From positions 1-57,987 of the forward strand of contig JAJRVW010000225.1 of assembly GCA_024277115.1 (NCBI GenBank): a stretch of 57,987 bases of DNA, in the 5' to 3' direction. The notes under the pieces are model-generated. The model searched no databases, was not told where the DNA came from, and saw only the letters and a list, made by a program, of their open reading frames with translations. Source of the DNA: Calditrichota bacterium (lineage in GTDB: Bacteria; Calditrichota; Calditrichia; Calditrichales; J004). Numbering within the stretch: the first letter of the stretch is position 1; each line of letters opens with the position of its first letter. A program made the translations under genes and the position numbers. Positions 52,359-55,593 of this stretch are shown piece after piece.

Positions 52359-52645
52359 TGAGACTTGCCCAATTCGATAAATTGCAAATTCTTTTAAACA
52401 AACTTGAACAAAAAACGCGGCTTCTAAAACAAACAAATTTTAAGCTGACCCAAGAGAATATTAAATTAAGAGAAGAACTTGAATTAATACGAATGCGTTC
52501 AGATACAACAGAATTGCTAGAATTGAACAAAATCAACAAAGAAAACGAACTACTTCAACTAAAAAATAAAGATGCAAGGACACAATTGGTAAAACTCATC
52601 CACCGGGTTGAGGGAAATATTGTTCTTGAAAATGGTGTTGGATAA
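52358..52645 (+). CDS. Small coiled-coil protein between pheT and zapA (ZapB-like)
   Basis: A 95-residue protein that is almost entirely a coiled coil (heptads of Leu/Ile from residue 8 to 85, as in LQILLNKLEQKTRLLKQTNFKL). There is no signal peptide or membrane helix. Its length, composition and place directly upstream of zapA suggest a ZapB-like divisome partner, but this is inferred from position; coiled coils give little sequence evidence. Confidence 0.65.
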   Translation: MRLAQFDKLQILLNKLEQKTRLLKQTNFKLTQENIKLREELELIRMRSDTTELLELNKINKENELLQLKNKDARTQLVKLIHRVEGNIVLENGVG

Positions 52646-52661
52646 ACTATTGGATCCATTT

Positions 52662-52949
52662 ATGGCTCCCAAACAAATTAATGTAAATATATTTGGTTCA
52701 GAATATTCACTTGTTTCTGATGATGACGATAGATTTATAAAAAACATTGCGCACTACTTAGATACTAAAATGCGAGAGATAGATAGATCGCAAAACTTGA
52801 AATCTACTGCACGAATAGCCATACTGGCAGCCCTAAACATAGCCGAAGAATTATTTCAAGAGCGCGAGTATAGAGAAAAATTGCTTAATCAGATCGATGA
52901 AGAATCAAAAAAGATGAACCAATCTATTATTGATATAATAGAAGAATAG
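52662..52949 (+). CDS. zapA: Cell division protein ZapA
   Basis: FtsZ-bundling protein of 95 residues: INVNIFGSEYSLVSDDDDRFIKNIAHYLDTKMREI at the N-terminus, then TARIAILAALNIAEELFQ and a C-terminal coiled coil. Start at ATG 52662; an upstream ATG at 52632 would add ten residues. The promoter of the 6S-like RNA lies partly inside its 3' end. Confidence 0.92.
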   Translation: MAPKQINVNIFGSEYSLVSDDDDRFIKNIAHYLDTKMREIDRSQNLKSTARIAILAALNIAEELFQEREYREKLLNQIDEESKKMNQSIIDIIEE

Positions 52950-52967: not shown

Positions 52968-53138
52968 AAAACCCTGTTTTAAGTCTAATAAATGGATCAA
53001 CACCATTAAACCAGGGAACTTGACTCTGCTTGAATATTGCAAGCCACTTAAATGAGGAAGCATGAACCAGGCAGGAGGTACCCATAATATCCACGTCAGG
53101 TCCCTTATTATTAGCGCTTTTTAAAACGGGGTTTTTTT
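52968..53138 (+). ncRNA. ssrS: 6S-like RNA (ssrS)
   Basis: About 170 nt between zapA and rny. The ends form a 15-base closing stem, AAAACCCTGTTTTAA with TTAAAACGGGGTTTT (one G-U pair), which runs into a T tract. Inside, GGGAACTTGAC can pair with GTCAGGTCCC on the other side, leaving an open middle, as in 6S RNA with its central bubble that mimics an open promoter. It has its own promoter, and a position next to zapA is common for ssrS. Structure and context only, no homology search. Confidence 0.75.
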
Positions 53139-53170: not shown

Positions 53171-54727
53171 ATGAGCACTACAGACATTATAATTGTGTTT
53201 ATTATTAGTTTTATATCTTTTCTTACAGGCTGGATATTAAACTCCGTTATCGGAAAACGGAGCCTTGCGACCGCCAAGAAGAAAGCGGAATCGATTCTTC
53301 AAGATGCACAATCTGACATTGAGAATTTAAAAAAAGAAAAACTGTTAGAAGCAGAGGAAGATATTTATCAGCAAAAACAAAATCTGGAAGAAGAGTTTCG
53401 GTCTAAAAAAAATTCATTAAAAGCATTAGAAAATGACCTGCTTACAAAAGACAATAATATCGACCGTAAAGCTGACCTTGTTGCCAAAAAAGAACGTGAC
53501 TTATTTATAAACGAGCGTGAACTTAAAAACAGGGAACACGCGTTAAACAACAGGCAAAAAGGTCTCGAAGAATCCATCGAGGAAGCAAATAGAAAACTGG
53601 AGGATTTATCCGGCTTAACAAGTAGTGAAGCCAAAAAACTTTTGATGGACAATCTCCTCGAGGAAGCAAAAAAAGAAGCGGCACACACTATTTATCAAAT
53701 GACAAAAGAGGCAAAAAACTCTGCCAACGAAGAAGCCCGGCGGATCATAATCTCGGCCATGGAGCAAATTGTATCCAATCATACAATCGAATCCACGGTT
53801 TCTACGGTTGCCCTGCCTTCGGATGATATGAAAGGGCGTATAATTGGTAAAGAAGGGCGGAATATCCGGGCATTTGAAATTGTGACGGGCGTAGACGTCA
53901 TTGTAGATGACACGCCACAGGCTGTTTTATTAAGCGCTTTCGATCCTTACCGACGGGAGCTGGCTAAGCTAACAATGGAAAAACTTGTTAGTGACGGCAG
54001 AATCCATCCGGGGCGGATAGAAGAAGCACATGAAAAAGTTATGGTCGAAATGGATGACCATTTTGAGGAAATTGGCGAACACGTGCTTCATGAGATCGGG
54101 ATTCATGGATTTCATACAGACATTGTAAAAACCCTCGGAAAGCTAAAATATCGCTCCAGTTACGGGCAGAATGTATTGCAACATTGCCAGGAAGTTTCAG
54201 AGATGGCGGGTATTCTGGCCGCAGAATTAGATTTAGATGCCAACTTGGCCCGACGCGCAGGCATTCTACATAAAATCGGTTTAGTGGTTCCAAAAGCAAG
54301 CGAATCAAATTATTCCAAACTGGGCTATGAATTTGTTAAAAAATATGGTTTAAACCCAATTGTTCTTAATGCAATTCTTGCTTATGGCGACAAAACAGAG
54401 GCTATCTCACCGATCCCTGTTTTAATACGCATCGCGGAAGAAATTAGCCTAAAACGGCCAGGCGCACGCAGAGATGTTATCGAAAGTTATGTAAAAAGAC
54501 TGCATTCTTTAGAAGAAGTGGCCGATTCTTTTGAGGGTGTACGAAATTCCTATGCCATTCAGGCTGGTAAAGAAGTACGGATAATTATAGACCACTCAAA
54601 AGCGGATGATGCACAAAGCCATCAACTTGCTTCGGATATTGCAAAGAAAATTCGTAAAGATGTCGATTCGTCCAACCAGGTAAAAGTCAGCATTATTCGT
54701 GAATTCCGATCTGTTGATTACGCTTAA
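53171..54727 (+). CDS. rny: Ribonuclease Y homologue with a degenerate HD site
   Basis: Membrane-anchored RNA decay factor family. The 518 residues are: transmembrane helix (~6-25), coiled coil (about 30-190), KH domain (GRIIGKEGRNIRAFEIVTGVD, from about 222) and HD domain. Length and C-terminus (FEGVRNSYAIQAGKEVR) are as usual. The metal-binding residues are not: HD is His367-Lys368, and the later H, HH and D are Tyr381, Tyr405-Gly406 and Glu423, in a gapless alignment; only His338 remains. Probably a catalytically inactive or altered RNase Y. GGAGG Shine-Dalgarno. ymdB follows. Confidence 0.9.
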   Translation: MSTTDIIIVFIISFISFLTGWILNSVIGKRSLATAKKKAESILQDAQSDIENLKKEKLLEAEEDIYQQKQNLEEEFRSKKNSLKALENDLLTKDNNIDRKADLVAKKERDLFINERELKNREHALNNRQKGLEESIEEANRKLEDLSGLTSSEAKKLLMDNLLEEAKKEAAHTIYQMTKEAKNSANEEARRIIISAMEQIVSNHTIESTVSTVALPSDDMKGRIIGKEGRNIRAFEIVTGVDVIVDDTPQAVLLSAFDPYRRELAKLTMEKLVSDGRIHPGRIEEAHEKVMVEMDDHFEEIGEHVLHEIGIHGFHTDIVKTLGKLKYRSSYGQNVLQHCQEVSEMAGILAAELDLDANLARRAGILHKIGLVVPKASESNYSKLGYEFVKKYGLNPIVLNAILAYGDKTEAISPIPVLIRIAEEISLKRPGARRDVIESYVKRLHSLEEVADSFEGVRNSYAIQAGKEVRIIIDHSKADDAQSHQLASDIAKKIRKDVDSSNQVKVSIIREFRSVDYA

Positions 54728-54777: not shown

Positions 54778-55593
54778 ATGCTACGCATATTATTTATTGG
54801 TGACATTGTGGGCCATGAGGGCCTTAACCTTTGCACTGATTTTGTTCCACTTTTAAAACGCGATTTTAATATCGATTTTTGCATCGTTAATGGTGAAAAT
54901 AGCGATGCCGGAAAAGGTATCACCAAAAAACAGGCACAAAAACTTTTAAGTTCCGGTGTAGATGTTATAACCGGTGGCAATCATATCTGGCAAAAAAACA
55001 GTATTGATGTCATCGAAGATAATTCGCTACGAACGCTAAGACCCGCCAACTATCCCTTTGAAAAACCGGGCAGGGGATTTATAATCCATGCTAATGATTC
55101 GAAAAATAAAATTGCTGTAATCAACCTTCAAGGTAGAAGTTTTTTACCGCCTATCGACTGTCCCTTTCAGGAAAGTTTGAAAATAATCGACGAAGTAAAA
55201 AAGGAAACACCGGTCATTTTTGTCGATTTTCACGCAGAAGCAAGTGCCGAGAAACAAGCGCTTGGCTGGCACCTGGACGGTAAAGTATCGGTTGTTGTAG
55301 GCACGCATACACATGTGCAAACCGCCGATGAACGCATTTTGCATAAAGGTACCGCATACATCACAGATGTTGGTATGACAGGCGCTGCCGATAGTGTAAT
55401 TGGCATGGATATTAATACGGCAATCCAACGCTTCCGGACACAGCTTCCAAAATACTTTAAACTTGCCACACGCAATATGCGGCTAAACGGCGTTCTCATT
55501 TCTGTTAATGAAAACACCGGCAAAGCAAATAAAATAAGACGTTTAAATTTTTCGAGAGAAGAATATGGAAACATCAAAGATACTCAATGGTAA
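54778..55593 (+). CDS. ymdB: YmdB-family metallophosphoesterase (TIGR00282)
   Basis: Calcineurin-like phosphoesterase, 271 residues, with 2',3'-cAMP phosphodiesterase activity reported in Bacillus. Metal ligands are all visible: IGDIVG, NGEN, GGNHIW, DFHAEA and GTHTHVQT, plus INLQGRSFLPP and ITDVGMTGA. It is normally next to rny, as here, and its site is intact, in contrast with that of the RNase Y homologue. folD overlaps its 3' end by 29 nt. Confidence 0.94.
   Translation: MLRILFIGDIVGHEGLNLCTDFVPLLKRDFNIDFCIVNGENSDAGKGITKKQAQKLLSSGVDVITGGNHIWQKNSIDVIEDNSLRTLRPANYPFEKPGRGFIIHANDSKNKIAVINLQGRSFLPPIDCPFQESLKIIDEVKKETPVIFVDFHAEASAEKQALGWHLDGKVSVVVGTHTHVQTADERILHKGTAYITDVGMTGAADSVIGMDINTAIQRFRTQLPKYFKLATRNMRLNGVLISVNENTGKANKIRRLNFSREEYGNIKDTQW

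Follow-up and report, generated by a model that had tools for sequence, protein, structure and literature searches.

How can a ribonuclease Y persist without the metal site with which it cuts RNA? In the prevailing view, RNase Y is one polypeptide that both binds and cuts RNA. The window analyzed here, a stretch of 57,987 nucleotides from a Calditrichota bacterium that probably belongs to the class Calditrichia, encodes an RNase Y homologue (hereafter copy A) with a degenerate HD site. The gene has an ATG start and encodes a full-length protein of 518 amino acids. It scores 600.5 bits against the ribonuclease Y equivalog TIGR03319 (cut-off 454) over residues 7-518, which places it within this family by sequence. 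Its closest named record comes from a Calditrichales bacterium (L094, 69% identity, possibly identical to genome G003), which makes a placement in Calditrichia very probable, and a PDB sequence search with copy A returned no match. The locus contains the following features:

52608..52949, + strand: zapA, upstream neighbor of copy A (Pfam ZapA)
52968..53136, + strand: 6S RNA between zapA and rny (RF00013, 43.9 bits, full length, just below the gathering score of 46.4)
53171..54727, + strand: rny copy A, RNase Y homologue with a degenerate HD site (TIGR03319; ligands HHKYYGE)
53186..53242, + strand: N-terminal membrane helix, residues 6-24 (hydropathy maximum; helix in the AF2 model)
53807..53968, + strand: KH domain, residues 213-266, with intact GxxG loop (Pfam KH_1; GRIIGKEGRNI conserved)
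53993..54025, + strand: DGRIHPGRIEE segment, residues 275-285, which A retains and a second copy (B) lacks (column comparison)
54146..54475, + strand: degenerate HD domain region, residues 326-435 (Pfam HD, 35.8 bits)
54778..55593, + strand: ymdB metallophosphoesterase gene, downstream neighbor (PF13277, TIGR00282)

Copy A possesses the membrane helix and coiled coil of the family, as judged from the RNase_Y_N Pfam match, hydropathy and long helices in its AF2 model, and a KH_1 domain with its GxxG loop in GRIIGKEGRNI. The metal ligands of an active nuclease (H, HD, H, HH, D) are not preserved, the seven columns reading HHKYYGE instead of HHDHHHD. In an alignment to 79 named RNase Ys, His338 and His367 are retained, while Asp368 is replaced by Lys (AAA), His381 and His405 by Tyr, His406 by Gly and Asp423 by Glu, so that five of the seven ligands are gone. 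Residues 367 and 368 align with H368 and D369 of Bacillus subtilis RNase Y, where single mutations of the HD pair almost abolish cleavage (PMC10303841). The initial annotation had thus correctly described a near-total loss of ligands with His338 kept, and a need for the HD pair in Bacillus. It had also described the KH domain, the GARR segment and the C-terminus as well conserved, which holds except that Y500-P501-G502 are gone as well in the window's family. As HHDHHHD is found in 78 of the 80 named RNase Ys and one of the two exceptions falls in this same family, a loss of ligands by chance is excluded. Sequencing error had been dismissed on the grounds that several codons differ by two or more bases. 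This argument is weaker than stated, since a single base change suffices for three of the replacements, and two are required only for Lys368 and Gly406. Error is nevertheless excluded by the relatives: all six genomes of the family, from two genera, read HK at the HD pair, Tyr or Phe at 381 and at 405, Gly at 406 and Glu, Ser or Ala at 423.

AF2 models of copy A and of a canonical homologue show a similar secondary structure, and both match HD structures such as 2pq7, with Foldseek hits that are weak by E-value for either model. Judging from these models, the HD fold of copy A seems to persist in a structural or interface role.

A search of the genome for a second rny, proposed as a check in the initial annotation, retrieved a canonical, full-length copy B (G000:C76:34998-36503), which is 39% identical to A and has HDIGK, EGSH, AHHEE and AADKIS all intact. 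A scaffold model with a single rny is rejected by its existence. Such a second copy had been expected to lessen the importance of A; instead it explains the HD loss of A, since B has lost conserved segments that A retains. Both copies are present in nearly every genome of the class, where DGR..P is retained by 34 of 34 A copies and by none of 35 B copies, and 34 of the 35 B copies have the complete HD ligand set. Among columns that are near-invariant (at least 97% identical across the 79 named RNase Ys), the A copies of all six family genomes are missing 9 out of 33 in the HD domain and 1 out of 39 in the KH region; for the B copies found alongside them, the losses are 2 out of 33 and 12 out of 39, respectively. 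All 34 A sequences retain the DGRIHPxR segment, R223, R261 and Q464, together with E511, R513 and A518 in the tail, whereas each of these is altered in at least 90% of B copies across the class. In Calditrichia, the KH domain of B still has its GxxG loop, and B may thus have retained RNA binding. Across the class, A decays in steps: families f3, f5 and f6 are mostly canonical, f2 (the sister family) and f4 show only D423->N, and nearly all ligands are gone in f1, the family of the window. A PDB sequence search with copy B returned only KH plus weak or unrelated matches. Derivation of B from one named donor group is unsupported, as the tree gives it no well-supported close named relative.

Within the family, the HD domain of the A copies has a dN of 0.02-0.23 with synonymous sites saturated or dS >1.3 and a stable open frame (NG86 values were used, YN00 being unsuited to saturated pairs). 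The low dN against saturated or high dS indicates that purifying selection maintains copy A as an HD protein of non-canonical type. Mean identity within the family genomes is 0.80 for the HD domain of A versus 0.96 for that of B, and 0.95 versus 0.90 for the KH region; thus, A is freer than B in the former and tighter in the latter. From the conserved loss, the low dN and the intact KH domain, the view that copy A has lost catalysis and kept RNA binding is well supported at the sequence level.

The gene neighborhoods of the two copies are distinct. In all 37 class loci, two of which are single-copy outgroups, zapA lies upstream of A and is usually preceded by pheT; in L024, L029 and L030, a 6S RNA above the gathering score sits at the corresponding position. 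Ignavibacteria (L095-L101) and other relatives have matching surroundings, which places copy A at the ancestral pheT-zapA-6S-rny locus. B sits elsewhere, not adjacent to A, near def in f1 and most of f2. The zapA/ymdB order around A is operon-like in f1. In f2 and f4 (L008-L022), ymdB was not found beside rny, and folD usually follows directly.

We then asked how far this division extends, in a survey of 251 genomes, 217 of them with a match; the partition was summarized over some 185 diverse genomes in which rny had a match. Few genomes outside the class have two full-length copies, and all of these repeat the partition, with one KH/DGRIHP copy and one HD-intact copy that lacks DGRIHP. Outside the class the A and B labels were set by these motifs; what is not circular is that every pair consists of one copy of either kind and that this is in line with synteny, A copies having zapA or ymdB nearby in most loci and B copies, or those of a second partner type C, never. 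In two-copy genomes, the HD site is intact in 14 of 50 A-type copies and in 48 of 49 B/C-type copies, and DGR..P is found in 50 of 50 and 0 of 49, respectively. Where a second match is absent, or too short or weak (counted as single-copy), 42 of 44 sequences have an intact HD site. The 80 named loci had been fetched by the KH patterns MKGRIIG[RK] and TG[VI]DVIVD, so invariance at these KH sites is partly by construction; the DGRIHP and HD counts are unaffected and were repeated on genomes from the full-length search.

Degenerate A copies read HHAYHNN, HHDFFDD, HHASLGV, HHDSQEN or HHDHIHD, depending on the lineage, or deviate solely by Asn in place of the last Asp. A degenerate copy occurs in seven of eight two-copy lineages versus 2 of 44 single-copy ones (Fisher p = 2e-6, with tips that are not fully independent), and changes between canonical and degenerate A number 4 to 8 Fitch steps, depending on the tree. 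Some two-copy lineages (f3, f5, f6, G230 and G129) still have a canonical A, so the division is not complete everywhere. The B copies of different lineages form one clade, even without the HD domain (support 0.955 and 0.987 for all B). Partner type C, found in L081, L177, L205 and L208, lacks the KH motif, and L081, L205 and L208 group apart from B. By this grouping, B is a single family, and a separate KH-less family, C, appears to fill its role elsewhere.

Four individual genes deserve mention. The B copy of G017 (L047, 3058-4653, + strand) has HYVG rather than HDIG, the sole non-canonical HD site among 49 B/C copies, and may be an assembly error. L197 (G189) is a lone short rny-like gene of 347 amino acids that has the KH region without the HD ligands, in a genome with no other match. 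In L221 (G123), a single-copy RNase Y, the first His of AHH is replaced by Gly and the remaining ligands are retained. L137, from a metagenome-assembled genome (isolate new MAG-301), differs only by Asn for the last Asp and groups with the A copies of the G093 phylum, from which a B copy is predicted in its genome.

How, then, might copy A function? Sequence comparison establishes that the losses are reciprocal and recur in several lineages and that A is subject to purifying selection, and it also establishes synteny. We favor, at a probability of roughly 60%, the view that copy A is the non-catalytic partner of a divided RNase Y, in which A would take care of RNA or assembly and B would cut. 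A would bind and position RNA and would join B in mixed membrane-bound oligomers, membrane anchor and coiled coil being present in both, and B would supply the metal site and cut. We infer such an A-B heteromer as the most likely arrangement from the N-terminal membrane helix of both copies (hydropathy), the coiled-coil dimerization of the family and the interference caused by HD-dead RNase Y. Modeled RNase Y dimers make contacts via the long coiled coil and the C-tail (PMC9775385), and inactive RNase Y is dominant negative over the wild type in B. subtilis, for which mixed oligomers or competition were invoked (PMC10303841). The C-tails, a proposed dimer contact, differ between A and B, and the two genes do not lie side by side, both of which count against a heteromer. 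At slightly under even odds, several lineages might even possess an obligate two-subunit RNase Y, consisting of a non-cutting KH/DGRIHP subunit and an HD subunit unable to place RNA alone, and reached repeatedly with two partner types, the KH-degenerate B and the KH-less C.

Alternatively, A could be a natural dominant-negative brake that shares B's RNAs or enters its oligomers and reduces the activity of B while contributing nothing to cleavage, much as HD-dead RNase Y raises the levels of RNase Y targets in B. subtilis like a deletion (PMC10303841). However, B lacks DGRIHP across the class even where A is canonical, which fits dependence on A better than inhibition and makes a brake unlikely.

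We give less credence still to a membrane-bound RNA-binding scaffold that works with other partners, such as YmdB or RNase E/G, independently of B. The retained KH region and the operon-like zapA/ymdB order in f1 agree with it, as does the presence of RNase E/G, homologues of which score above the family threshold in 39 of the 40 genomes of the class; RNase Y may accordingly not be the main initiator of decay in the class. No RNase J (family TIGR00649) was found in the genome of the window. However, HD decay correlates with having a second catalytic copy, and ymdB is not beside A in f2 and f4. The initial annotation had suggested a scaffold with YmdB or another nuclease cutting: its loss of catalysis with the RNA-binding parts kept stands, but it was made unaware of the second rny, and YmdB is a weak candidate for the cutter, as ymdB no longer follows rny in these two families.

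That A still cuts RNA through a remodeled site of His338/His367 and Lys368 is very improbable: Lys368 and Gly406 are fixed family-wide and metal sites do vary among HD proteins (PMC8177086), but five of seven ligands are gone and family members differ in their residues at 381, 405 and 423 (Y/F, E/S/A). An assembly error or pseudogene, conceivable for a draft genome in 255 contigs, is rejected with near certainty by six agreeing genomes, the intact frame and a dN far below dS.

The natural, recurring separation of the parts of RNase Y shows which segments serve cutting and which RNA handling, and it marks the invariant DGRIHPxRIEE segment as important. Natural pairs of paralogues also make the role of RNase Y oligomerization directly testable, and genes annotated as ribonuclease Y may be non-catalytic.

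A search of the accessible literature for RNase Y pseudoenzymes or rny duplication returned nothing relevant, and known systems resemble the pair in part. Copy A shares with RNase Y (TIGR03319; B. subtilis Rny) the order of membrane helix, coiled coil, KH, HD and C-terminal region, as well as the zapA and ymdB locus, but five of its seven HD ligands differ, among them the Asp of the HD pair, and in B. subtilis a mutation of this Asp leaves almost no activity (PMC10303841). The RNase J1/J2 pair of Firmicutes likewise consists of paralogous ribonucleases with unequal active sites, as do A and B throughout the class. In Staphylococcus epidermidis, J1 has two metals and J2 one, and both copies are reported to be active (PMC7864078), whereas here most of the metal site is gone from A, and residues of the RNA-binding region from B. 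The laboratory HD-dead RNase Y (H368A/D369A), which is dominant negative on the wild type (PMC10303841), is disabled at the same site with the remainder kept; unlike this mutant, copy A is natural, evolutionarily stable and paired with a specialized catalytic paralogue.
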